Shown here: positions 6,396-41,422 of the stretch, piece by piece
Layout of the letters: each line of letters starts with the position of its first letter
How positions within the stretch are numbered: the stretch's first letter is position 1
Origin: a virus
Direction: 5' to 3' (one strand)
Virus record (IMG/VR): IMGVR_UViG_3300017934_000084
Span: 1 to 45,374 of that record
DNA length: 45,374 bases
Notes under the pieces: model-generated
What the model was told of the DNA's origin: nothing
Database searches by the model: none
The model's input: the letters and a program-made list of their open reading frames with translations, nothing else
Position numbers and translations under genes: made by a program

Positions 6396-6620
6396 ATGAA
6401 ATTCATTCTTCCTTTACTACTAGTATTAATTGGTTGTGGGTGCGCTCACGCCTCCCATCAAGCTCACTTGAATAGGGGAATAGTTAAATGTACTGGAACT
6501 TTGGAAAACTGTTCCAAAATAGCTCACACCATGTGTGAACATATCGATCTTCCAATGATGGCAGAAGGTCCATCCGATAGCGGAGAGTTTACCGTCACCT
6601 TTGATTGTTTGGATAAGTAA
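6396..6620 (+). CDS. Small lipoprotein, 74 aa
   Basis: The ATG at 6396 gives a short lipoprotein signal (MKFILPLLLVLIGC) with lipobox LIGC, then CAHAS and a mature domain with four further cysteines. It is likely lipid-anchored in the envelope. An in-frame upstream start would bury the signal. It begins a run of small envelope genes (6396-7295). Small phage lipoproteins often block superinfection, but nothing here proves that. Confidence 0.65.
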   Translation: MKFILPLLLVLIGCGCAHASHQAHLNRGIVKCTGTLENCSKIAHTMCEHIDLPMMAEGPSDSGEFTVTFDCLDK

Positions 6621-6621
6621 C

Positions 6622-7002
6622 ATGAAGAAGTTATTTTTAGCCTTAGCTCTTTGCCTTGGTTTGGTTCCTATGATTGGTTGCTATGCCGACGAGGGTATGT
6701 ATATAGAGGTTCCGATTGCCTACACTACTGGCACGGTAGAGTTCTGTGACGATTGGGGATGCCGCTATTTGACGGCTCCTTATTACTACATGGATGGTGA
6801 AGTAGTCTATTGGGACGCCCACTTTGGTTGCTGGATTGGTCCACGTGGTTGGTGGAGGAGTGGTATTTGGTATCGAGGCTGGGTAGAAGGCTACCATGGC
6901 TGGTATGGCGAGCGTTATTATCATTATTCCTATAGTCATCCCGGTGGCTGGAGAGCTGGTAGTGGTTATCATGGCTATCGCGGCGGGGGTCATCGTCGAT
7001 GA
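6622..7002 (+). CDS. Gly/Tyr/Trp-rich lipoprotein, 126 aa
   Basis: Begins MKKLFLALALCLGLVPMIGC, a signal peptide with lipobox MIGC. The mature part is rich in tryptophan, tyrosine, glycine and histidine, with repeats such as GWWRSGIWYRGW, YHGWYGERYYHY and GYHGYRGGGHRR. It resembles YxWGxW-type envelope proteins that bind surfaces or metals. It starts one base after the previous stop. The His-rich basic end could contact lipopolysaccharide, metal or nucleic acid. Confidence 0.65.
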   Translation: MKKLFLALALCLGLVPMIGCYADEGMYIEVPIAYTTGTVEFCDDWGCRYLTAPYYYMDGEVVYWDAHFGCWIGPRGWWRSGIWYRGWVEGYHGWYGERYYHYSYSHPGGWRAGSGYHGYRGGGHRR

Positions 7003-7295
7003 ATCTTAGTATTGTTATACTGGCAATATATGGGCTCGCTTTTTTTCTTAAAGAGAGCGATGGTCCCTGGGGCGTTATGAATTGGTTTCGACGAACCCTA
7101 TTTAACCTCCTCTGGGTAGGAGTTTTTTTCATTAAACTATTTGACTGCTACTTTTGTGTAGGTTGCCATTGTGGCTGGATTGTTTATTTGTTGAGCACGA
7201 CTACACCCACTTGGCAATTTTTTATATTATGGACTTTGGCTGGTGGAACGATCTCACTAATTATTGATGCCTTGCTTTCGAAGCTCCATCAATAA
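6999..7295 (+). CDS. DUF1360-like membrane protein, 98 aa
   Basis: Two to three membrane segments: residues 3-17, about 33-48, and 72-92. Between them lies a cysteine motif, DCYFCVGCHCGW, close to the C-x-x-C-x-G-W signature I know from DUF1360 phage and sporulation-related proteins. Its ATG overlaps the previous stop (ATGA). Its 3' end overlaps the converging HNH gene by about 35 bp. Probably an inner-membrane protein; function unknown. Confidence 0.6.
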   Translation: MNLSIVILAIYGLAFFLKESDGPWGVMNWFRRTLFNLLWVGVFFIKLFDCYFCVGCHCGWIVYLLSTTTPTWQFFILWTLAGGTISLIIDALLSKLHQ

Positions 7296-8028
7296 CATTT
7301 TGTTTAGCTGATAACGGACGCAAATTAGATAGTGCCCAGCATTTCTTAAAATTATCATCTGTCATAGAGGTATATGGCAAATTAGATTGTGGAATAATGT
7401 GGTCGAGTTGCCAAGTCCAAGTAGTTGGATCATTATCATCCCATATTCTAGAATTATAAGTACCATAGTTACTCCAGGTCATCCAGGGCTCAAATAGTGC
7501 CTCCAAATGATCTTTTAATTCTTGAATCGAATAAGGAAGATGTTTGATAATAGATTGATTATTTTTGAATCCACCGTTTCTTTTTATAATTTTGTTGATA
7601 GATTTTGAGATATTTTTTCGCATATGAAAAATTGGATCATTTTCCATTCTATTTTTTATGTATTTATTAATTTTGTTTCTATTATTACGATTTCGTTGTC
7701 TATTTTTACTTTGTAAAGTTTCTTTATTATTAGTATAATATTGCTTATTGTATTCGTTTTTAACTTTTGGATTATTGTTACGATACTGTTTTTGTTGCGT
7801 TAGGATTTGTTCTTTATTATCGATATAATATTGTGCGGCGTTTGTGCTGATATTCTCTTTATTAATAATATAATATTCTTTGCTTTGCTTTTGGATACCC
7901 TCTTTATTATCAATATAATATTGTTTTTTATATATTTTGATGCAATCTTTACATTTAGATTGTTTTTGATTAAAACAACTAATATCTTTTGCGGCTCCGC
8001 ATGCTATACAAGTTTTTAATGTAACCAT
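7261..8028 (-). CDS. HNH homing endonuclease with YYxxNKE repeats, 255 aa
   Basis: An N-terminal zinc knuckle (CIACG, then CKDC) is followed by tandem units of about 12-16 residues with the core YYIDNKE, probably a helical DNA-contact array. The C-terminus holds the nuclease: WTWQLDHIIPQS, then KKCWALSNLRPLSAKQN, an HNH/endonuclease VII-like fold. The DNA is very AT-rich, unlike the neighbours, which fits recent transfer. A paralogue of the same plan lies at 29067-29951. The gene runs against its neighbours and overlaps the 3' end of the membrane-protein gene. Confidence 0.85.
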   Translation of the reverse strand: MVTLKTCIACGAAKDISCFNQKQSKCKDCIKIYKKQYYIDNKEGIQKQSKEYYIINKENISTNAAQYYIDNKEQILTQQKQYRNNNPKVKNEYNKQYYTNNKETLQSKNRQRNRNNRNKINKYIKNRMENDPIFHMRKNISKSINKIIKRNGGFKNNQSIIKHLPYSIQELKDHLEALFEPWMTWSNYGTYNSRIWDDNDPTTWTWQLDHIIPQSNLPYTSMTDDNFKKCWALSNLRPLSAKQNVIDGASKARHQ

Positions 8029-13723: not shown

Positions 13724-13800
13724 GCTCGAATGACGGAATAGGCATACGTACTGTGTTCAGATCGCAGGTTTTAAGGGTTCGACTCCCTTTTCGAGTACCA
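13724..13800 (+). tRNA. tRNA-Leu (anticodon CAG) with short variable loop
   Basis: All arms fold. The acceptor is GCTCGAA with TTCGAGT (one G-U), with discriminator A and encoded CCA. The D arm (ACG/CGT with GG in the loop) resembles bacterial leucine tRNAs. The anticodon stem is CTGTG/CGCAG with loop TTCAGAT, and the T stem is AAGGG/CCCTT with loop TTCGACT. The variable loop is only 5 nt (GTTTT), whereas bacterial tRNA-Leu normally has a long arm. It decodes CUG. Confidence 0.85.
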
Positions 13801-13803
13801 TAG

Positions 13804-13892
13804 GTCATCGTGTTGGAATGGTATACAACTTACGCTGAGAACGTAAGCCACATAATTAGTGGGTGGGGATTCGAGTTCCCCCGATGACACCA
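13804..13892 (+). tRNA. tRNA-Leu (anticodon GAG)
   Basis: Acceptor GTCATCG/CGATGAC is fully paired, with discriminator A and encoded CCA. Anticodon stem TTACG/CGTAA has loop CTGAGAA, giving anticodon GAG for CUC and CUU. A class II variable arm pairs CCAC with GTGG. T stem GGGGA/TCCCC has loop TTCGAGT. It lies three bases after the previous tRNA, so the two are surely cotranscribed. Confidence 0.93.
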
Positions 13893-13901
13893 AGTAAGAA
13901 T

Positions 13902-13985
13902 GGTGTTGTGGCGAAATAGCAGACGCACTCCGTTTAGGGCGGAGCGCCTTCGGGCGTGAGGGTGCAAATCCCTCCAACACCACCA
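13902..13985 (+). tRNA. tRNA-Leu (anticodon TAG)
   Basis: Acceptor GGTGTTG/CAACACC with A and encoded CCA. Anticodon stem CTCCG/CGGAG has loop TTTAGGG, giving anticodon TAG for CUA and other CUN codons. The class II variable arm is a clean hairpin CGCC-TTCG-GGCG. T stem GAGGG/CCCTC has an unusual loop, TGCAAAT. With the two preceding genes it completes a set for the whole CUN leucine box. Confidence 0.93.
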
Positions 13986-14010
13986 TATAAAATGAAGGTT
14001 CGAATGCCTG

Positions 14011-14020
14011 TGATATATAC
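14011..14020 (+). promoter_or_regulatory. Candidate extended -10 promoter (TGATATATAC)
   Basis: Identical to the element at 40667-40676. It lies six bases before the ATG of the HNH gene at 14027, so a transcript from it would be nearly leaderless. No Shine-Dalgarno site is present at this start, which agrees with that reading. Confidence 0.4.
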
Positions 14021-14026
14021 ATAGGT

Positions 14027-14788
14027 ATGAGTAATTACAATCAGAAGCATTCCAAAGAATTATTAGAGCCGATCGTCAAAAACTCCACGTCTGTTGCGGA
14101 GGTATTGAGAAAATTAGGACTTCGTCAATCTGGTGGCAATCATTCACATATCACTCGTCGCATTAAGTTTTATGAGTTAGATACTTCGCATTTTATTGAT
14201 CCAAAGACTAACCTAAAACCCGGAATCAATAAGTTGCCACCAGACCAAATATTGGTAAACGATCGTCTTCAAGGAAGAAGAGATGGTGTAGCCAAATTGC
14301 GTAGAGCATTATTAGAATCTGGTGTAGAGCACAAATGCAAAGAATGTGGTTTACCACCACTTTGGAATGGCAAATATCTTCAACTTCAAATCGATCATAT
14401 CAATGGTGACTTCACAGATAATAGGATAGAAAATCTACGATTCATTTGTGGCAACTGTCATTTGCAAACTGAAAACTTTGGTATCAAAAACTCACCTAAT
14501 TACCTTGATAAGGTGGTTGTAATAAAGCCACTTAAACCATTAAAACAAGTCTTGCCAAAACCTTCCGAAATTGATCCTAATTGGCGTCATCAACCGAAAC
14601 CTAAGACACGTAAAGTAGAACGTCCCAACAAAGAATTGCTCGCCCAATTGTTATGGGAAAAGCCCACAGCTCAATTAGCTATTGATTTTGGTGTATCTGA
14701 TAACGCTATAGCAAAATGGGCTAAATCGTATGGACTCAATAAACCACCACGTGGATATTGGGCTAAAAACAAAACTACCCAAAAGTGA
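14027..14788 (+). CDS. HNH endonuclease with helix-turn-helix segments, 253 aa
   Basis: The N-terminus (SVAEVLRKLGLRQSGGN) is a helix-turn-helix-like segment found in phage HNH proteins. The HNH core is CKECGLPPLWNG, LQIDHINGD and NLRFICGNCHLQTENF, with its zinc cysteines present. The C-terminus has a second helix-turn-helix (TAQLAIDFGVSDNAIAKWAK). It is a typical free-standing homing-type gene, placed just after the tRNA-Leu set and converging on a minus-strand gene at 14792. Confidence 0.88.
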   Translation: MSNYNQKHSKELLEPIVKNSTSVAEVLRKLGLRQSGGNHSHITRRIKFYELDTSHFIDPKTNLKPGINKLPPDQILVNDRLQGRRDGVAKLRRALLESGVEHKCKECGLPPLWNGKYLQLQIDHINGDFTDNRIENLRFICGNCHLQTENFGIKNSPNYLDKVVVIKPLKPLKQVLPKPSEIDPNWRHQPKPKTRKVERPNKELLAQLLWEKPTAQLAIDFGVSDNAIAKWAKSYGLNKPPRGYWAKNKTTQK

Positions 14789-14791
14789 CGC

Positions 14792-15526
14792 TTACTTAGC
14801 GTATTTGGCTAACAAGATCTCGCTGATTTCCAAAGAAGACTTCTTATCTTTGCCACCTACATTAATTTTAGGATACTTAGATTTAACTTTACGGGATACA
14901 GCATCCTGTAGTGATTTTAAACTACCTTTGTACCAAGATGGAGCTTTATTATATTGGTGTGATCTGGCTAGGGCATTACGCGCCTGATCAGCATCGTTAA
15001 TTGGAAAATGATCTTTATGATCAGTTACGTTAGGACTTTCAGCCGGAAATACTACAGTACCCCTTGAGCGAACCTTAGCCTTTGGGTCCAACTTCTTCTC
15101 TTGCTTTTTCGCCAAGAGAATTAGTTCCATAGCAGCGGCTTTAGCCTTTGGTTTTTCTTCCTTGCCACGACCAGAACCTTCACATTTGTGGCAAAACTTG
15201 CCATCTTTGTATCCCTCACCGTCGCAAGCATCGCACTTGGGCTTGGCTCGTTCCTTTTTAATATCTTCTTCATCCACGTCCCAAGGAAAACCTGCTACAC
15301 CAAGTTTGGCATCATTATCGTCTTCATCCTTACCGAAACCCTCAGATTTGGGTTCCAATATCTTAATGACTGGCAATTCTCTGATGGTAATCGGACCCTT
15401 TTCCTTCATTTTAAGCCACTTGGCAAAATCTTCTTCAAAACCTGCGGGTTGTGGGATATCCGCGGCGAATTTTTCGAATTGAGTGGCTAAAACTAATAAT
15501 TCTTGTACGGTAGGCGGCATTGACAA
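14792..15526 (-). CDS. Phage protein with DnaJ-type zinc finger, 244 aa
   Basis: Domains in order: an N-terminal helix (ELLVLATQFEKFA), an acidic linker, a zinc finger of the DnaJ kind (CDACDGEGYKDGKFCHKC, about residues 98-115), a Lys/Ala-rich helix (AMELILLAKKQEKKL), and a C-terminal domain with HFPINDADQARNALARSHQ and PSWYKGSLKSLQDAV. That last segment is a motif I have seen in phage head or capsid-associated proteins (DUF6582-like). It is isolated on the minus strand. A structural or virion role is possible but unproven. Confidence 0.7.
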   Translation of the reverse strand: MSMPPTVQELLVLATQFEKFAADIPQPAGFEEDFAKWLKMKEKGPITIRELPVIKILEPKSEGFGKDEDDNDAKLGVAGFPWDVDEEDIKKERAKPKCDACDGEGYKDGKFCHKCEGSGRGKEEKPKAKAAAMELILLAKKQEKKLDPKAKVRSRGTVVFPAESPNVTDHKDHFPINDADQARNALARSHQYNKAPSWYKGSLKSLQDAVSRKVKSKYPKINVGGKDKKSSLEISEILLAKYAK

Positions 15527-15587
15527 CCTCGAAAACGGTGTTATAGTATATACTACTAATAATCAGGCAATATTATTACCAGTTATG

Positions 15588-15664
15588 GTGACGTGAGGGA
15601 GCTGGTTGACCCCGGGTGTCTGTGAAACACTCTTTGGCGAGTTCGAATCTCGTACGTCACCCCA
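15588..15664 (+). tRNA. tRNA-His (anticodon GTG)
   Basis: Acceptor GTGACGT/ACGTCAC is fully paired. The discriminator is C, and the base before the acceptor (15587) is G: the G-1:C73 pair that marks histidine tRNAs. Anticodon loop CTGTGAA gives GTG. T stem GCGAG/CTCGT has loop TTCGAAT, and CCA is encoded. Position 8 is G instead of the usual T. Confidence 0.9.
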
Positions 15665-15673
15665 GGAATCAAA

Positions 15674-15769
15674 ATGCAGGAGTTAGTAATTGCAGTTGTT
15701 TCTATTTTCGTGATGGCAATATTCTGGTTCTTTTTGGGACTATGGATAGTAAGTCATCCCGATTTTTGA
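15674..15769 (+). CDS. Tiny membrane protein, 31 aa
   Basis: An ATG frame between two tRNA genes, preceded by AGGAA at good spacing. It codes for MQELVIAVVSIFVMAI, then a WFF and a short polar end: a single hydrophobic segment with an acidic N-terminus and HPDF at the end. It is likely a one-pass inner-membrane miniprotein. It was easy to miss because of its size. Confidence 0.5.
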   Translation: MQELVIAVVSIFVMAIFWFFLGLWIVSHPDF

Positions 15770-15772
15770 TAT

Positions 15773-15848
15773 GGCCCCATAGTTTACCGGCTGTGAACAT
15801 TTGGCTTTCAACCAAGAGGTGTGGGATCGTCCCCCACTGGGGTCACCA
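15773..15848 (+). tRNA. tRNA-Glu (anticodon TTC)
   Basis: Acceptor GGCCCCA/TGGGGTC with discriminator A and encoded CCA. D arm GTT/AAC. Anticodon stem TTTGG/CCAAG has loop CTTTCAA, giving TTC for GAA. T stem GTGGG/CCCAC has the odd loop ATCGTCC, in which A replaces the usual T at position 54. It starts three bases after the tiny membrane gene's stop. Confidence 0.9.
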
Positions 15849-15863
15849 AAAGAGCAAGTCTTT

Positions 15864-16136
15864 ATGAAATATATTACTAGTGAAGATATTTGTGGATGCT
15901 GTAAATATGTATTGGGTCGTGATTGGAATGATGTGTGCGAGCGTGTCGCCTCAATACGTCAGTATATCACCCTCCATACTCAGCCGGGCGAAAAGATTGA
16001 CATCTTCAAATTTGTCAAAGTTTTTGAGGATAACGAGGGCTACACCCGCAGTGATGTTTGCATGGCAGTGTTAAATCTCATCGAAGAAGGTATATTGCGA
16101 CACGATAAAAATGATATTGTGAGAAGTTATCAATAA
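15864..16136 (+). CDS. hypothetical protein, 90 aa
   Basis: Begins MKYITSEDICGCCKYVL. The cysteines could bind metal. The second half (GYTRSDVCMAVLNLIEEGILRHD, in two stretches) looks like a winged-helix segment, so a DNA- or RNA-binding role is possible. It lies between two tRNA-Glu genes and was chosen from the ATG at 15864, because earlier codons lie inside the tRNA. Confidence 0.6.
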   Translation: MKYITSEDICGCCKYVLGRDWNDVCERVASIRQYITLHTQPGEKIDIFKFVKVFEDNEGYTRSDVCMAVLNLIEEGILRHDKNDIVRSYQ

Positions 16137-16138
16137 CC

Positions 16139-16148
16139 TGATATAAAC
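16139..16148 (+). promoter_or_regulatory. Candidate extended -10 promoter before tRNA-Glu
   Basis: TGATATAAAC lies 9 bases before tRNA-Glu(CTC), a spacing that would place the start a few bases ahead of the tRNA. It shares the TGATATA core with the elements at 14011, 27274, 38544 and 40667. Confidence 0.4.
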
Positions 16149-16157
16149 AATACACAC

Positions 16158-16231
16158 GGTCCCTTCGTCTAATGGTAGGACATATCATTCTCAATGATAG
16201 AACAAGAGATCGATACTCTTAGGGATCGCCA
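16158..16231 (+). tRNA. tRNA-Glu (anticodon CTC)
   Basis: Acceptor GGTCCCT/AGGGATC, discriminator G, encoded CCA. D stem GTC/GAC has GG in the loop. Anticodon stem TATCA/TGATA has loop TTCTCAA, giving CTC for GAG. T stem AAGAG/CTCTT has loop ATCGATA, again with A at position 54 as in the other tRNA-Glu of this cluster. Confidence 0.9.
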
Positions 16232-16241
16232 GAAAGTTTAT

Positions 16242-16321
16242 GCCGATGTATACCCTGCGGTTTCTACCCGCTTGAAAGGTTAATTGAATACATGTGGGTT
16301 TGAGTCCCTCCATCGGTGCCA
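16242..16321 (+). tRNA. Aberrant tRNA-like gene, anticodon unresolved
   Basis: The acceptor GCCGATG/CATCGGT (one G-U), discriminator G, encoded CCA and a T arm (loop TTTGAGT, one stem mismatch) are clear. The inside does not make a cloverleaf. The best hairpin is GCGG-TTTCTAC-CCGC, which would give anticodon TCT (Arg) but leaves no room for a D arm and about 20 nt before the T arm. A serine-like loop CTTGAAA has no stem. It may be a degenerate tRNA, a tRNA mimic or a gene damaged by the adjoining homing nuclease, whose 3' end overlaps it. Confidence 0.5.
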
Positions 16322-16995
16322 AGTTTAATATTGATTATGTTTTGAATTATTTCCCAAAATTTTTCAGCATTACTCGACTTAAATCTTTTAAGTGAGGACG
16401 TATCGATAATTACCAATTCAATATTTTTTTCGAGACAAGCTTGAAACTTTCTGCTGTCGTTATTTTGTATGCTTGCTAATTTATCTTGTCCATAGATGGG
16501 TTCATAATGGAAAATGCCGTTAAGTTCGAAGGCAAGATTAAGTGATGGAATATAAATATCAAGTTCAGAATTGATGGTTTCTTTTTGGTTATACTTCACA
16601 TGCAATGATGGGTATGATATTGAGATTTTTTCTTCAAGCCATTGTTCTAATTTAGAGCGGCGTGTTCCGGTAGTTTTGTGAGTGTTATTATAAGTGGCGG
16701 CACAACTGTGCGAGCAAAAACTATTACCACTTTTTGATAACTTGAATTGATGTAGTTGTTTGATAAATGTTATTCCACATTGGACGCAATTTACGTTTAT
16801 TGATGTTATTTGTGAAAGTCCCATACATTTTGTGCTACAAAATCTTGTTTCTTGATGCTTTAATAAACGTAATCTTATCCATTTAGCTTCCATATAAAAA
16901 GTTTGCGAGCAATATTCGCATTCGAAAGGTAATTTGTCAGTACGAGCATAATCGTTTAACTTAGTGATATCAAATAAAGGCTGCATACCTATCAT
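16264..16995 (-). CDS. Vsr/EDxHD-like homing endonuclease with zinc fingers, 243 aa
   Basis: Three zinc-finger-like units (CEYC with FCSTKC, CVQC, FCSHSC) lead to a nuclease domain: SELDIYIPSLNLAFELNG, then H and the ligand-rich KNIELVIID segment. This matches Vsr-like homing enzymes in which D and E hold the metal. The last 19 residues (from LGTDGG) are coded by the opposite strand of the tRNA-like gene, so the nuclease gene probably landed beside or in that tRNA. AT-rich, unlike its neighbours. Confidence 0.75.
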   Translation of the reverse strand: MIGMQPLFDITKLNDYARTDKLPFECEYCSQTFYMEAKWIRLRLLKHQETRFCSTKCMGLSQITSINVNCVQCGITFIKQLHQFKLSKSGNSFCSHSCAATYNNTHKTTGTRRSKLEQWLEEKISISYPSLHVKYNQKETINSELDIYIPSLNLAFELNGIFHYEPIYGQDKLASIQNNDSRKFQACLEKNIELVIIDTSSLKRFKSSNAEKFWEIIQNIINIKLGTDGGTQTHMYSINLSSG

Positions 16996-17064
16996 GATTC
17001 GATATGCATAGAAAATATATTTTCGACTATTGATAGGGATACAACTAAAAATTTAGGCATATTT

Positions 17065-17073
17065 TGATATTAA
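17065..17073 (+). promoter_or_regulatory. Candidate extended -10 promoter before tRNA-Arg
   Basis: TGATATTAA lies 11 bases before tRNA-Arg(ACG) and matches the TGATATA-type element. The surrounding 80 bases (16996-17084) are AT-rich with a 14-bp palindrome, GAAAATATATTTTC, at 17011-17024 and no gene. Confidence 0.35.
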
Positions 17074-17084
17074 ATTGTAAATAT

Positions 17085-17171
17085 GCGTCTGTAGTCTAAC
17101 GGACAAGGCTCCTGGCTACGAACCAGGCGGGGGCAACTCCATAGTAGGTTCGACTCCTACCAGACGCACCA
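17085..17171 (+). tRNA. tRNA-Arg (anticodon ACG) with long variable arm
   Basis: Acceptor GCGTCTG/CAGACGC with A and encoded CCA. Anticodon stem CCTGG/CCAGG has loop CTACGAA, the loop of bacterial tRNA-Arg(ACG). T stem GTAGG/CCTAC has loop TTCGACT. The variable region is 16 nt and forms a hairpin GGGG-GCAA-CTCC with a GNRA tetraloop. Arginine tRNAs normally have a short variable loop, so this is class II-like in shape. Reading of CGC or CGA would need A34-to-inosine editing. Confidence 0.85.
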
Positions 17172-17176
17172 AATAT

Positions 17177-17251
17177 ATCCTCGTAGTGAAATGAATATCA
17201 CAATTGTCTTCGAAACAATTAGTGTGGGTTTGATTCCCACCGAGGATGCCA
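17177..17251 (+). tRNA. tRNA-Arg (anticodon TCG)
   Basis: Acceptor ATCCTCG/CGAGGAT, discriminator G, encoded CCA. D stem GTG/CAC, with a loop that lacks the usual GG. Anticodon stem ATTGT/ACAAT has loop CTTCGAA, giving TCG for CGA and other CGN. T stem GTGGG/CCCAC has loop TTTGATT. It lies five bases after the previous tRNA. Confidence 0.88.
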
Positions 17252-17942: not shown

Positions 17943-18497
17943 ATGGAACATTATTGTCATGCTCGAGGCTGCACTGTTTCAGTCAAGCCCGAACTGTTGA
18001 TGTGCTGGAATCATTGGAAACAGGTTCCTAAAACTATTCAACAAGCCGTTTATTTACACTATCGTCCTGGACAATGTGATGACAAACATCCGTCTAAAGA
18101 ATGGCATGAAGCGGCGGATGCGGCTATTGGTTATGTAGCTCAAAAAGAAGGTCATTCTATTCGCCAATGTGAAAAAGAAGCATTAATGAAGTTCGGTTGT
18201 AGTCCTAAAACTCCCAAAGTGGTGCATTGTAAAAGAGAACCATACGATGTTTATATTGGCAGGGGTTCAAAGTTTGGCAACCCCTACTCTCACCAAGAGG
18301 GAACGGCTGCTGTTTGGGTAGTAGATACCCGCGAAGATGCCATCCGTCTATATGAGGAGTGGTTGCGCGCTCAATCAAAATTGATGGCGGCTGTTAAGAA
18401 AGAATTGCGCGGGCGCATTCTTGGCTGTTGGTGTTCTCCGCTGGCATGTCATGGTGATGTGCTATTGAAAATAGCCAATGAGGAAAAAGATGAGTGA
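17943..18497 (+). CDS. DUF4326 protein with N-terminal zinc-binding module, 184 aa
   Basis: The N-terminal 70 residues (CHARGCT, MCWNHW, then an acidic helix) form a Cys/His module seen alone in other phages. From about residue 93 it is a DUF4326 domain: VVHCKREPYDVYIGRGS, KFGNPYSHQEG, and the C-terminal LRGRILGCWCSPLACHGD. The conserved Cys-Trp-Cys and CHGD suggest a catalytic or nucleotide-binding site, but the biochemical role of this family is not known to me. The two modules are fused here. Confidence 0.75.
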   Translation: MEHYCHARGCTVSVKPELLMCWNHWKQVPKTIQQAVYLHYRPGQCDDKHPSKEWHEAADAAIGYVAQKEGHSIRQCEKEALMKFGCSPKTPKVVHCKREPYDVYIGRGSKFGNPYSHQEGTAAVWVVDTREDAIRLYEEWLRAQSKLMAAVKKELRGRILGCWCSPLACHGDVLLKIANEEKDE

Positions 18498-18797: not shown

Positions 18798-19053
18798 TTT
18801 GGATAGTCCCTCTACTGATTTAGTTGACCGGTAACAAGACTAAACGTTGAGCCGAATCAATCGTTAGTAGAGCTGTGGTAGGAGAGTTTCAGATCTCCTT
18901 TGACACGGTGAATTGACACCAGATAGGAATGAGTCTTCAACCCGTGAGGCGAGAAATAAGTTCCTACAGCCCAATCCCAGACGAACTGTATAGTTCCTTT
19001 TGCACTTGGGAAAATAGGTGAACCAAAGCGGGGAGCAAGCCGCACTATCCAAA
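18798..19053 (+). ncRNA. Candidate novel structured RNA, about 256 nt
   Basis: A gene-free stretch closed by a perfect 10-bp stem: TTTGGATAGT (18798-18807) with ACTATCCAAA (19044-19053). Inside are further helices. A 7-bp stem (810-816/866-872) closes a three-way junction with hairpins 820-825/838-843 and 843-850/857-865. Other helices are a 6-bp hairpin AGGAGA/TCTCCT (880-899), a GGTG/CACC hairpin (907-920), a TAGGAA/TTCCTA pairing (924-929/961-966), GAACT-GTAT-AGTTC (983-996) and GCGG/CCGC (19028-19043). It lacks RNase P, tmRNA, SRP and intron signatures. It ends 19 bases before the next ATG, so it could be a separate RNA or a cis-acting leader. Confidence 0.6.
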
Positions 19054-19072: not shown

Positions 19073-19372
19073 ATGAATAGACCTGAATTTGTGACTGAAG
19101 CTGACATTCAACGCTGGTCAGACACTATAGATAATGACCCTAACCCGCTTAGGCATTTTGCTGATTTTGCTATACTTCGAGAATTATTATATGCTAGTTT
19201 CTGGTTAGCCGAGAGTTTGCAAAAAGAAGGGTGTCCAGCCGAGATTATTCCTCGTATTCAGTATACTATGGGCGGATTATCTTTTGGTAAAGATCCCTGG
19301 ATAATAGCCCAAGAGATGTTGGAAGCCTATAAGAACAACGAGATGGAGTTCGAAATTGACTATGATGCATAA
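19073..19372 (+). CDS. hypothetical protein, 99 aa
   Basis: A largely helical acidic protein with no motif that I recognise. GAGGA precedes the ATG at good spacing. It is the first gene after the structured RNA, so it would be the gene controlled if that element is a leader. It overlaps the next gene's start by about ten bases. Confidence 0.65.
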   Translation: MNRPEFVTEADIQRWSDTIDNDPNPLRHFADFAILRELLYASFWLAESLQKEGCPAEIIPRIQYTMGGLSFGKDPWIIAQEMLEAYKNNEMEFEIDYDA

Positions 19373-21759: not shown

Positions 21760-23370
21760 ATGAAATTTGAGAGGATCATAGGGAAAATAGATCCAAAATT
21801 GATTGCGGCAGCAGAAAACAGACTATCGCAAATCTTTTTGGAATTGGCTACCCGATATAGTAATGAACATATTGGAACGGGTATGGGTGGCGATCCACTC
21901 ATCTTTGGATTAATGTATCCAGTGCAACATGTGGCTACTATGAACATTCCTACTGCCGCTACTGATGGCAAGAGGTATTATTGGAATCCAAAGTTTATTC
22001 TTAAACAGAGTCGTATTGGTTTGCGTATCATTTGTGCTCACGAAGCTTGGCATGCTATCTACATGCATCCAGCTCGTCGAGGTTCCAGACTCCCTAAACT
22101 ATGGAACATTGCTGTCGATTATATTGTTAATGGTACAGTAATGGATGACTTCAGGGCTCGTAAAATGAACCCGGAAGAAAATTTCACCAAGCATTTGGGT
22201 CGCTTCATGACTTTGAATGATTATTGTGAATTACTTAAGAATCCCTATGCTTCCATTAAAGGTTTCGAAGATTTGAAACCTGGTGATGCAGAACCTAATC
22301 CGACGGCGGATCTTCCAGGTGCCAATGAAGACCGCGAACTCACTCCCGAAGAACAAAAAGAGTTAGAACGTCGTGAGAAGAAGATTCAGTTTTATTATGC
22401 CGATCCGGGTCTGGAAGACGATATGAAGAGACCAGAAAAGATTTACGATCTACTGTATAGTCTGTTGCCAAAGTGTCCTCAGTGTGGTAAAGTGGGTATG
22501 TATCCACCTCCAGGTTCCACAAAGAACAAGGATAAATATAAGGGCAAAAATAAAGCTTCCGGTGATACAGCTGAAGAGCAATCCAAGCAACCTGGACAAA
22601 ATGGTGATCAAGGCGATCAGTCAGGAAAAGGATCGGGCAAAGGATGCGATCATTGCGGAAATGGGATCGATATCTTCGGATTAGGCGGAACCGTTGACGA
22701 TCATATGGATACTGAGGAAACAGAAGAGAAATTAGCGAAAAGAATTTCCGATGCTATGGATGCTGCCAGGAAAATGGCAGGACATGTTCCGGCAGCGCTG
22801 GAAGAGGAGCTGGGAAAACTTACTGCCCCCAAGATAACTTGGTCAGATGTAATAAGATGTAGATTACTTAAATCTAGAGCTGGTAATTCTAAAAATGATT
22901 GGACAAGATTTAGAACTCGTCCAATGTTTAGCGGTCTTTTAGTGCCTAAAAGAAAATCTTATCATTCTAATTTTGGAGCTTTATTGGATACAAGCGGCTC
23001 AATGAGTAAGGATGATATAGCTTATGCCGTTAGTCAGCTTATAGGGCTTGATGATAGAGCCGAAGGTTGGATTGTGCCAGCTGATGCCACTGTATATTTT
23101 GATCAGGCTGTTAAAATTAAAAAATGTAATGCAGAAGAGTTGTCAAAAGTAAAAGTCGTTGGTCGTGGAGGAACATGTTTTGCACAGTTCTTTTCCGAAT
23201 ATGAGAAGCATATTGGTAAATGCGATTTTTTAATTATTATGACTGATGGTTTTTTATTAGACACAGATATTGCGGAAATGAAAAACCCCGGAATAGATGT
23301 TTATTGGATCATAACAAGTGCAAGTTCTTTTAATGCACCATTTGGAAAAGTATTAGAACTACGTGGTTAA
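21760..23370 (+). CDS. Metallopeptidase-VWA protein (DUF2201-like), 536 aa
   Basis: The N-terminal half is a putative metallopeptidase domain with HEAWH at 94-98 (the HExxH zinc site) and conserved NIAVDYIVN following it. A charged middle follows, with two CxxC zinc knuckles (CPQC, CDHC) around a Gly/Lys/Gln-rich linker. The C-terminal third is a VWA-like domain with the metal site DTSGS near residue 409 and IMTDGF. It pairs with the MoxR ATPase upstream, as in bacterial MoxR-DUF2201 pairs. Its start has GGAG, and GATATATAC lies at 21737-21745. Confidence 0.9.
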   Translation: MKFERIIGKIDPKLIAAAENRLSQIFLELATRYSNEHIGTGMGGDPLIFGLMYPVQHVATMNIPTAATDGKRYYWNPKFILKQSRIGLRIICAHEAWHAIYMHPARRGSRLPKLWNIAVDYIVNGTVMDDFRARKMNPEENFTKHLGRFMTLNDYCELLKNPYASIKGFEDLKPGDAEPNPTADLPGANEDRELTPEEQKELERREKKIQFYYADPGLEDDMKRPEKIYDLLYSLLPKCPQCGKVGMYPPPGSTKNKDKYKGKNKASGDTAEEQSKQPGQNGDQGDQSGKGSGKGCDHCGNGIDIFGLGGTVDDHMDTEETEEKLAKRISDAMDAARKMAGHVPAALEEELGKLTAPKITWSDVIRCRLLKSRAGNSKNDWTRFRTRPMFSGLLVPKRKSYHSNFGALLDTSGSMSKDDIAYAVSQLIGLDDRAEGWIVPADATVYFDQAVKIKKCNAEELSKVKVVGRGGTCFAQFFSEYEKHIGKCDFLIIMTDGFLLDTDIAEMKNPGIDVYWIITSASSFNAPFGKVLELRG

Positions 23371-28649: not shown

Positions 28650-28658
28650 GGATAAGTT

Positions 28659-28838
28659 ATGAGTACAATTGAAAAAAGAACAATTCTCTTTTCAGGAATA
28701 ATGGAGATATTGTCAGATGGGCTCAAACTAATGCTGAAGCTTCCGTCAACGCCACATCCAGATGCAGAGTTTTTTAATGTTATAGGACATTATTTAGCAC
28801 GAATAAGTTGTATGGTGGTTGGACTTATGAGCGCCTAA
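28659..28838 (+). CDS. Small ORF, 59 aa, in a possibly frameshifted region
   Basis: An ATG with AAGGAT upstream opens a 59-residue frame (MSTIEKRTILFSG start, VVGLMSA end). A second frame on the same strand also looks protein-like: it has NNGDIVRWAQTNAEASVN before a TAA near 28771, and then YGGWTYERLIEEAEKLD further on. This suggests one older gene broken by frameshift or stop, or two overlapping genes. No family recognised. Confidence 0.4.
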   Translation: MSTIEKRTILFSGIMEILSDGLKLMLKLPSTPHPDAEFFNVIGHYLARISCMVVGLMSA

Positions 28839-28984
28839 TCGAAGAAGCAGAAAAATTGGATGCTCAAGCGGAGGCTCTATATAAGACTTCTACCGTTTTA
28901 CCCAAGGCGCCAGATTTCGAGTTTTTGGATGATTTGTGTATTAAATTAGTAGAAAGATCATTATCCACGAGTGGAATAAAATGA
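28808..28984 (+). CDS. Second frame, 58 aa, of the broken or overlapping gene
   Basis: From a TTG at 28808 this frame reads YGGWTYERLIEEAEKLD, AQAEALYKTSTVLPKAP and FEFLDDLCIKLVERSL, a convincing acidic helical protein. No ATG or strong ribosome-binding site opens it. It overlaps the end of the 59-residue frame by 31 bases. A programmed or accidental frameshift, or a degraded gene, would explain it. Confidence 0.45.
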   Translation: MYGGWTYERLIEEAEKLDAQAEALYKTSTVLPKAPDFEFLDDLCIKLVERSLSTSGIK

Positions 28985-29066: not shown

Positions 29067-29951
29067 ATGAAAATCTGCCCCGGGTGTCAAATTAGTAAGG
29101 AAGATACAGAATTTGGTAAAAATAAAAGTAGAAAAGACGGCTTGAGTGCATACTGTAAGATTTGTTCTAAATTATATAATCAAAAATATTATATTAATAA
29201 TAAAGAAAAATTAGACGCTAACAATAAAGAATATGCCCTTCTTCATAAAGAAGAAATAGTTGAATATAAAAAAGAATATTATGAGAATAATAAGGAAACT
29301 ATTCTTGAAGCAGCAAAAGAATATCGCGAAAATAATAAAGAAAGTATTTCCCTAAAAAAGAAGAAGCATCATTACGATAATCAAGATTTAATCTTAGATA
29401 AGGGTAGAAAATATTACCACAATAATAGAGAAGACAAATTAATATATCAAAAAGAGTATGCCGCAAATAATAAGGAAAAAATAGTTGTTGCCAAGAGAAA
29501 TTATTATATTAACAACAAAGAAGAAATAAAAGCGCAACATTTAGAATACGAAAAAGAAAGAATCAAAAATGATCCTGTTTTTAAATTCAGAAAGCTTGTG
29601 TCAAAATCTATTAGATATGCACTGAAAAATAATAGATTTTCTAAAAATGGAAAATCTTGTCTTGATTATTTAGAATACACCTTTGACGCACTAATCGATC
29701 ATATCGAACAGCAATTCAAGTGGTGGATGACTTGGGATAACCACGGAATATATAATCTTGAGAAGTGGGATGATAACGATCCATCCACTTGGACATGGAA
29801 TATCGATCATATAATTCCTCAAAGCGATCTGCCATATACTTCGATGAGTGATGATAATTTCAAGAAGTGTTGGGCGTTGCAAAATTTGCGCCCGTTATCA
29901 GCAAAACAAAACATTTTAGATGGCAATAGAAGAGGGAAAAATAATGGATAA
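29067..29951 (+). CDS. HNH homing endonuclease with YYxNNKE repeats, 294 aa
   Basis: Same plan as the gene at 7261-8028: a zinc knuckle (CPGCQI, CKIC), a long array of about ten repeats (cores YYINNKE, YYENNKE, YRENNKE), then the nuclease WTWNIDHIIPQS and KKCWALQNLRPLSAKQN. The catalytic block is nearly the same as in the paralogue, while the repeat array is longer, so repeats have been gained or lost. It overlaps the next gene by eight bases. TATAAT at 29039-29044 may be its -10. Confidence 0.85.
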   Translation: MKICPGCQISKEDTEFGKNKSRKDGLSAYCKICSKLYNQKYYINNKEKLDANNKEYALLHKEEIVEYKKEYYENNKETILEAAKEYRENNKESISLKKKKHHYDNQDLILDKGRKYYHNNREDKLIYQKEYAANNKEKIVVAKRNYYINNKEEIKAQHLEYEKERIKNDPVFKFRKLVSKSIRYALKNNRFSKNGKSCLDYLEYTFDALIDHIEQQFKWWMTWDNHGIYNLEKWDDNDPSTWTWNIDHIIPQSDLPYTSMSDDNFKKCWALQNLRPLSAKQNILDGNRRGKNNG

Positions 29952-39216: not shown

Positions 39217-40584
39217 ATGTTGTTAGTCCAAGAATATTTGGAAACCCATAATTTCCGTCAATTAGAAGAAGAGCATGGCGTTTATGCTTCATTTTCTAAA
39301 TCTGGACACAAATTCTCTTTGAACTACGATCAGATCGAAGCGCAGGAAGCTGATCCGTTGGCACAAGAATGCCGTGGGCTTATTCTATCTTCTATGGATG
39401 GCAAGCCGTTTTCCTACTCTCAAGAAAATAGCGACCCTAATCGCAAGACTGTTCTTGGGCACGTGGTGCCTGGTCCAACTCGGGTTTTGGCTTACCCAAT
39501 GAAGCGTTTCTTTAATCACGGTCAAGGTTCCGCAGCGGACATCGATTGGTCAGATCCCAAACTGGCTGTATTGGAAAAATTGGACGGCACCTTGTGTATT
39601 GTTTATTTCGATCCTTTTACTGATAAGTGGTGCATGGCGACGCGCTCCGTGCCAGAAGCTGACATACTAATGGATAACGGTATCTTCACTTTCCGAACTC
39701 TATTTGAGAAGGCTTTGAAGGATACTTGTGGTCTAGATTTCGATGAGTTCACTAAAGGTCTCAATACGAGAATTACTTACTGTTTTGAGCTAACTACTCC
39801 TTACAATAGGATCGTGGTCTATTACCCAGAGAGCCGAGTTACTTTACTGGCAGCCCGAGCTTTGTATGGTGAATTGGAAGAATTCGATTTCACTGATCTG
39901 GGTGGTTATGGGTGGGTTGATTTTAAAAACCTTCATGATTGGCAACAAGAACATTTAATCGGTCTTGGTCATGATGAAAAAGATAGTCCAATAGCTTTAG
40001 TTCCCGTCCCTTTTCATTTAAAGGGTGTGCCGGTTGTTAAATCATATACCTACAGCACCATCGAGGAATTGATCAATTGGGTATCTTCTTTGAATCCACT
40101 TGAAAATGAGGGTGTAGTTGTGCGAGACAGTCAGTTCAACCGAATCAAGGTCAAGAATGCTGCTTATGTAGCCTACAACAAAATACGCGATCGTTTGGGA
40201 ACTTCTGAGCGCAACATCGTGGAATTGATTTTGGCAGAAAAAGATGATGATGTTATTCCCATGCTGCCAGAAGAAATCGTCAAAAATCTTCAAAAAATCA
40301 AGATGGGTATTCAATTTCTTATCAAAAAGTATGATGAAGTTTATCAAAACAGTTTGAAACAAGCTAATAATATCAAGGCTGGTGATAAAAAGACTTTTGC
40401 CTTGTTAATTAATAGTCAAAAGAAAGTGGGTAGCTACTATCTGTGGACTGCCCCGTTTTTTGCCATTTTTGATGGCAAAGCATTCTCGATGAGAGATTTT
40501 ATCCAAAAGAATAAAAAGGATGGAACTTGGTCAGATAGTTTTCTTGATAAGATATTAGAATTATCTAAAATAGCAAAAGCTTGA
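39217..40584 (+). CDS. rnlA: T4 RNA ligase 1-like (Rnl1) enzyme, 455 aa
   Basis: An ATP-dependent RNA ligase. The nucleotidyl-transfer motifs appear in order: KLDG with nucleophile K121, CFELTTPYNRIVV (motif III region), EGVVVRD (motif IV) and KVKN (motif V). A helical C-terminal domain specific to Rnl1 begins near residue 330. T4 Rnl1 is 374 aa, so this one has a longer C-terminus. With PseT it would reseal cleaved tRNA anticodon loops. A clear terminator follows at 40617. Confidence 0.93.
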   Translation: MLLVQEYLETHNFRQLEEEHGVYASFSKSGHKFSLNYDQIEAQEADPLAQECRGLILSSMDGKPFSYSQENSDPNRKTVLGHVVPGPTRVLAYPMKRFFNHGQGSAADIDWSDPKLAVLEKLDGTLCIVYFDPFTDKWCMATRSVPEADILMDNGIFTFRTLFEKALKDTCGLDFDEFTKGLNTRITYCFELTTPYNRIVVYYPESRVTLLAARALYGELEEFDFTDLGGYGWVDFKNLHDWQQEHLIGLGHDEKDSPIALVPVPFHLKGVPVVKSYTYSTIEELINWVSSLNPLENEGVVVRDSQFNRIKVKNAAYVAYNKIRDRLGTSERNIVELILAEKDDDVIPMLPEEIVKNLQKIKMGIQFLIKKYDEVYQNSLKQANNIKAGDKKTFALLINSQKKVGSYYLWTAPFFAIFDGKAFSMRDFIQKNKKDGTWSDSFLDKILELSKIAKA

Positions 40585-40616
40585 TATATAATAACTTAGA
40601 GCGTTAGGGAGTGAAG

Positions 40617-40655
40617 TGCCTGGTTAGGAGTTATTCTAACTGGGCATTTTTATTT
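40617..40655 (+). terminator. Rho-independent terminator after RNA ligase 1
   Basis: An 11-bp stem of TGCCTGGTTAG (40617-40627) with CTAACTGGGCA (40636-40646), two G-U pairs, 8-nt loop, then TTTTTATTT. It ends the 38520 promoter's unit. Confidence 0.85.
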
Positions 40656-40666
40656 GCTGCTAATTA

Positions 40667-40676
40667 TGATATATAC
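40667..40676 (+). promoter_or_regulatory. Candidate extended -10 promoter (TGATATATAC)
   Basis: Identical in ten bases to 14011-14020 and also five to six bases before an ATGAG start. It follows a strong terminator directly, so a new promoter is expected here. No -35 box and no Shine-Dalgarno site are seen; a leaderless transcript is possible. Confidence 0.5.
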
Positions 40677-40681
40677 AAAGT

Positions 40682-41422
40682 ATGAGCAAATACTTAATGG
40701 AAAATGACTGCTCGCAAGATAGTCTGCGATGGATTAGAAAGTTAGAGGATAAAAAAATCAAACCTAATCCGTTATCTAAAGACAAGACCGGCTATAATCC
40801 AGAAGAATTAGAACATTTGCAAAATGAGATTATTAAGGCAGGAGATTCTGCCCTAGCTTGTTTCTTTGCCACCGAGTTTGTCTACAAACAATACAGAATG
40901 CAAAAGCTAATTTTAGATAAAAAAGATACCAAATATGCTTTCATGTTTGCGCAATATGTCGAAAACTGTGATATCAAAGCGTTACAAAACTTAGTGATGG
41001 AATCAAATGAGATTAAGTATATTACTCGATTTGCTTGTCACGTTAAGAATGCCAACAAAGAGCCGTTGGAAGCTTTAGTGATTAAATCCAGAAAAGTCAA
41101 GTATGCTCACGAATATCTTAAACATGTTAAAACTGCTAATGTAGAGAAATTTAAGGAAATCATTCTTGATTCTGGTAAACCGCGCTATTTATTTGAGTTG
41201 GCTAAACATTTAAAAAAACCTGAAGACATACAACAGGTTCAAGACTTGATTATTGCCTCCGGATCTTTTACTTACATGAAGTTATTTGCCGAAAAAATTA
41301 AAACAGCAGACGTTGAAAAGATTGAGCAGGCAGTGTTGGATAGTGAGAATAGCGAGCAGATTAAGAGGTTCGCTAAGTATGTGAGAAAGTCTAGAATGAG
41401 AAAATTTTTACTTGTCATGTAA
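40682..41422 (+). CDS. Alpha-solenoid repeat protein, 246 aa
   Basis: From about residue 55 to the end the protein consists of about six repeats of 28-33 residues. Each has a helix with KYA or KYI, a second helix F-A-x-H-V-K or AKHLKK, and a linker into a LxxLVxxS segment. This is a HEAT-like helical solenoid, most likely a protein-protein or protein-nucleic acid scaffold. It converges on the matrixin gene and overlaps it by 15 bases. Confidence 0.7.
   Translation: MSKYLMENDCSQDSLRWIRKLEDKKIKPNPLSKDKTGYNPEELEHLQNEIIKAGDSALACFFATEFVYKQYRMQKLILDKKDTKYAFMFAQYVENCDIKALQNLVMESNEIKYITRFACHVKNANKEPLEALVIKSRKVKYAHEYLKHVKTANVEKFKEIILDSGKPRYLFELAKHLKKPEDIQQVQDLIIASGSFTYMKLFAEKIKTADVEKIEQAVLDSENSEQIKRFAKYVRKSRMRKFLLVM

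Follow-up and report, generated by a model that had tools for sequence, protein, structure and literature searches.

A structured RNA with a conserved fold, probably an accessory gene, from the tRNA/synthetase island of uncultured jumbo phages

A folded segment between two genes

The window analysed here, a 45,374-nt stretch of viral DNA (IMG/VR record IMGVR_UViG_3300017934_000084), contains a gap of 277 nt between the end of one gene (18795) and the ATG of the next (19073), and the question is what this gap encodes. The first-pass annotation had placed in it a structured RNA unlike known phage RNAs, either a new phage non-coding RNA or a regulatory leader of the gene at 19073. The borders that it gave for both genes and for the element were right, and its statement that the plus strand has no gene here was borne out, since no plus-strand frame of more than 30 aa was found in the gap. 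The segment is delimited by two perfectly complementary strands that form a closing stem of 10 bp (P1):

18798-19053, plus strand: structured RNA element, 256 nt (233-235 nt in the homologues), supported by covariance-model homologues and covariation
18798-18807, plus strand: 5' strand of P1, UUUGGAUAGU; every P1 cell pairs in the five members of the family
19044-19053, plus strand: 3' strand of P1, ACUAUCCAAA; every P1 cell pairs in the five members

Chance had been judged very unlikely for such a stem, and indeed, among 20,000 dinucleotide-shuffled versions of the gap, only 4 had a perfect closing stem of 10 bp or more close to the two ends (P ~2e-4). The folding check that had been recommended gave a minimum free energy (MFE) of -79.7 kcal/mol; against shuffles, the plus strand has a z score of -3.57 and the minus strand one of -1.87. 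However, the raw energy is only about -2 sd from the GC fit over the whole window, and some coding stretches fold equally well; hence, homologues were needed, and the convincing evidence is comparative.

Homologues and the evidence for a selected fold

A direct BLASTn search with the element returned nothing real in named phages or plasmids. Relatives were reached through a conserved neighbour (21760-23370, DUF2201/vWA), which pointed to a single clade of jumbo phages with contigs as long as 480 kb. A covariance model built from the window alone found homologues at E values of 1e-36 to 1e-50, and two further members were recovered with a three-member model, a scan for conserved motifs and another vWA scan. 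Four distinct homologues of 233-235 nt are thus known besides the window copy, all in contigs of related uncultured jumbo phages, and the pairwise identity among the five members is 61-85%:

window, 18798-19053
L043, 6974-7208
L041/L057 (one shared sequence), 6400-6634
L077 (seen also as L076), 6671-6903
L080, 1231-1465

These five are the only distinct members known; the metagenome collection lay outside the scope of the search, and the family may be larger. As far as named phages, plasmids and bacterial genomes were searched, the element has no match: pattern scans of contigs from bacterial genomes gave 0 matches, and the five-member model did not find it in the whole genomes of six named jumbo phages. 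Scans with protein patterns from the 105-aa neighbour and the antisense ORF were also without matches. The pattern TTTTGCAC...GGGGAGCAAGCC did match L068, L072 and L073, but these are three coincidences in coding sequence, and a weak match of the model in L074 was likewise discarded as coding sequence.

The three-way junction described in the first-pass annotation was wrong. Instead, P1 encloses a single large multibranch loop from which six conserved hairpins emerge, the first of them composed of two stems (all on the plus strand):

18810-18872, plus strand: H1, long two-part hairpin; 9 two-sided pairs over helices 2 and 3
18874-18905, plus strand: H2, GUG.G.UAGGRG...CCUUUGAC; three pairs with two-sided changes
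18907-18920, plus strand: H3, GGUGAAUUGACACC; identical in all five aligned members
18924-18966, plus strand: H4, variable, the window copy 22 nt longer than those of the homologues; alignment and covariation
18970-19010, plus strand: H5, with the invariant frame CCAGACG...CCUUUUGCAC around an apical stem; alignment and covariation
19028-19043, plus strand: H6, GCCGG GGAGCAAG CCGGC in the homologues, with a conserved loop; alignment and covariation

The inner stem of H1 covaries throughout (CGGU/GCCG, CUAC/GUAG, UAGC/GCUA), the apical stem of H5 occurs in three compensated versions (GAACU/AGUUC, GGUUC/GAACC, GACUC/GAGUC), and two pairs of P1 have changes on both sides among the five members. 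The unpaired segments that do not vary are the H3 loop, UUUUGCAC in H5 and most of the H6 loop. We also considered the H5 loop (CUGUAUAG) as a Tyr anticodon, an idea that was dropped, since other members have AUAU or GCAA as this loop, and words shared with 16S rRNA are short and, by estimate, within chance.

The least circular test uses the MFE structure of the window copy, which had been predicted when no homologue was yet known, on a structure-blind MAFFT alignment of the five members. There, 89.7% of the cells are paired and 21 pairs show two-sided changes, a count that none of 500 shuffles reached, while sliding the partners by 1-3 columns kept only 1-5 pairs. Since the five sequences are related, the shuffle counts cannot be read as probabilities; the slid controls preserve this relatedness. 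In the model-fitted alignment, 95.1% of the cells are paired, with 25 two-sided pairs, and RNAalifold on the MAFFT alignment gave 22 of 69 pairs. Covariation, the check proposed from the start, is thereby found in P1 and in hairpins H1, H2, H4, H5 and H6. Among the paired columns, 36 cells are G-U and 4 are A-C, indicating that the functional strand is the sense strand, read with the neighbouring genes. On comparative sequence grounds, the element is shown to be a real RNA with an evolutionarily conserved fold on the sense strand and sharp ends at P1.

Genomic setting and rival readings

The homologues sit at the same end of a tRNA/aminoacyl-tRNA-synthetase island as the window copy, and the tRNA island lies upstream of the RNA wherever the contig extends that far. 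The genes around the element in the window are the following:

13724-17251, plus strand: tRNA island upstream of the RNA, eight tRNAs called
17943-18497, plus strand: DUF4326 gene, found immediately before the RNA in L043
18478-18795, plus strand: upstream ORF of 105 aa, not found in relatives
19073-19372, plus strand: downstream gene p99 (99 aa), kept throughout the clade but adjoining the RNA only in the window

The gene order differs among the members (orf74 is a 74-aa ORF; the TyrRS and TrpRS of L043 were identified by NCBIfam):

window: 105-aa ORF, RNA, p99
L043: DUF4326, RNA, TyrRS, p99
L080: TrpRS, RNA, TyrRS, p99
L057: another 105-aa ORF, RNA, orf74, TyrRS, p99
L077: DUF4326-like remnant, RNA, orf74, p99

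The 5' end of the RNA lies a few bases past the end of the preceding gene or overlaps it, and the 3' end is 14-19 nt from the next start codon in all five members. AGA directly precedes P1 in four of the five; apart from this and shared remnants of neighbour genes, the flanks are unlike, and similarity stops at P1. Neither the closest relative of the window (L033) nor that of L043 (L044) has the RNA anywhere in its record (either record may be incomplete), and in both, other small genes occupy the site. In the tree of the AAA protein, at least four changes between presence and absence of the RNA are required among the labelled rows. In L044 the gene at the site (6428-7198) resembles a phosphatase, by visual inspection one of the HAD type, and its presence there suggests a hotspot of exchange. 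TrpRS and TyrRS were seen together in the tRNA island of L043 (5149-8419), L080 (268-2712), L050 and L054.

A protein-coding gene on the opposite strand, or a fold arisen by chance, would make the RNA illusory. Minus-strand ORFs of 62 aa are present in the element, open antisense frames of 54-62 aa, partly alike, occur in several members, and an energy just 2 sd or so beyond the GC trend of the window would suit chance. However, these frames start with TTG or GTG, their predicted peptides diverge in mid-course between members, and the codon-position signal is absent (variable columns 33/78, 45/74 and 42/76 by codon position, with no clear periodicity), so that the conserved coding that would have refuted the first-pass annotation was not met. 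Covariation that passes both the shuffled and the slid controls, together with the excess of G-U over A-C, stands against both versions; this reading is already contradicted, and we give it next to no credence. Mobile DNA, such as a MITE-like insertion with inverted ends that merely resemble a stem, could account for the inverted repeats at the ends of the element and for its patchy distribution, but not for helices that covary and loops that are invariant in its interior, nor for G-U pairs biased to one strand; moreover, no target-site duplication is visible in the flanks and each record has a single copy. It is very improbable, being already contradicted by the internal covariation.

The other alternative is regulation in cis, with the RNA as an intercistronic element (a riboswitch-like leader, an attenuator or an mRNA-processing or stability element) that controls the downstream part of the operon, in the ancestor perhaps TyrRS. 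We regard this as unlikely but still credit it with roughly one quarter of the weight, since in all five members the next start codon lies only a short way off; in genomes so dense, however, most genes are equally closely spaced. TyrRS directly follows the RNA in L043 and L080 and comes after orf74 in L057, but none follows in the window or in L077, whose 138-kb record lacks any TyrRS, and six loci have TyrRS without the RNA. The presence of the two is therefore uncoupled, and the TyrRS-leader reading was downgraded. A gene-specific leader is incompatible with TyrRS, orf74 and p99, three unrelated genes, all following the RNA, which also weakens the proposal of a leader for the gene at 19073, whose homologue adjoins the RNA in the window alone. 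No common helix hiding the start region or Shine-Dalgarno sequence was seen across the members, the presence of the RNA mostly makes little difference to the accessibility of the start region (L041 is an exception), there is no match to a T-box or other riboswitch, and in the window no terminator-like site was found on the plus strand in the stretch from the RNA to p99. The exchange of flanking genes on both sides, the absence in close relatives and the patchy tree favour a free-standing accessory gene over a leader. Judging from gene neighbourhoods, an RNA that acts like its own gene and comes and goes at a variable site of the translation module fits better than a leader. A counterpoint to a free RNA gene is that P1 is predicted only weakly in its genomic context in L041 and L077.

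Hence, the explanation that we hold to be probable, if well short of certain, is a new family of structured non-coding RNA genes of ~235-256 nt that are accessory at the end of the tRNA/synthetase island in a clade of uncultured jumbo phages. The RNA would be transcribed inside the polycistronic tRNA/synthetase transcript, as inferred from the common gene direction and the 14-19 nt to the next start codon (there is no transcript evidence). It might then be released by cutting, or protected, at P1 and would work in trans as a stable RNA or an RNA-protein particle, the likeliest role, inferred from location alone, being phage takeover or protection of translation. More tentatively, this could be a new functional class of phage RNA: a compact trans-acting RNA, passed between jumbo phages as a cassette, that targets tRNAs, synthetases or ribosomes in the course of infection, serving as a decoy, a sensor or an RNA-protein particle, and that may also self-associate, for example via the invariant AAUU-containing loop of H3. 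A comparison set is already at hand in the sister phages that carry or lack the RNA and that carry or lack TyrRS.

Known RNAs and other features of the window

Rfam 15 gave no match at gathering score for the element of the window, and none at E values up to 10 for the window and three relatives. The core motifs of tmRNA, RNase P, SRP RNA, 6S, group I and II introns and common riboswitches had been reported as missing, which agrees with the Rfam result and, for tmRNA, also with ARAGORN. Together with the covariation and the lack of a codon signal, the absence of an Rfam match supports the initial suggestion of a new phage non-coding RNA. We found no description of this RNA in the literature, our coverage of which is incomplete.

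Among the RNAs whose function is unknown, some of the most elaborate lie in phage tRNA islands. GOLLD, found in phages and prophages near tRNA islands, increases during lysis (PMC12286853); many of its members exceed 800 nt, and its linker sometimes holds tRNAs. ROOL, also from phages and prophages and often near tRNA islands (PMC12286853), has been reported to contain multiple pseudoknots and to form an RNA-only nanocage. The element resembles both in lying beside a phage tRNA island (tRNAs were called upstream in the window and in relatives), but it has only 233-256 nt and one simple multibranch fold, and neither the GOLLD nor the ROOL model of Rfam is matched. It is a different, much smaller family that shares their setting and not their size or model, and at such a size it lends itself readily to transcription, probing and structure determination. 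With it, an untranslated component that gene callers miss would join the translation modules of jumbo phages.

Non-coding RNAs expressed by phiKZ receive a bare mention in a review of jumbo phages (PMC13282480). These also come from a jumbo phage, although of a different group, and were compared only by BLAST against the phage collection. In three members the structured RNA stands ahead of a synthetase gene, as a T-box does, but there is no Rfam T-box match, no terminator before p99 and no tie to a synthetase. The tRNA cluster of T4 co-encodes stable small RNAs of unknown function that are shorter than the element; they are similar as extra RNAs beside phage tRNAs and were compared by BLAST and Rfam only.

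Several other features of the window were observed. A tRNA-Arg (TCT) look-alike at 16243-16324 (acceptor arms GCCGATG/CATCGGT, loop TTTCTAC) was missed by ARAGORN and Rfam and is overlapped by a minus-strand homing-endonuclease ORF (16264-16995); tRNA-Arg(tct) is present in the matching part of the island in several relatives. Two overlapping short frames at 28656-28984, between 28649 and 29067, look like one small frameshifted gene. The endonuclease-like genes at 7261-8028 (minus strand) and 29067-29951 (plus strand) form a 241-nt, 72% inverted repeat with internal 45-nt repeats, and look like duplicated free-standing homing endonucleases. Finally, a very stable fold at 40449-40704 (z -4.27) includes a long hairpin with a U-rich tail downstream of an RNA-ligase-like gene whose end is at 40584, and is probably a strong terminator.
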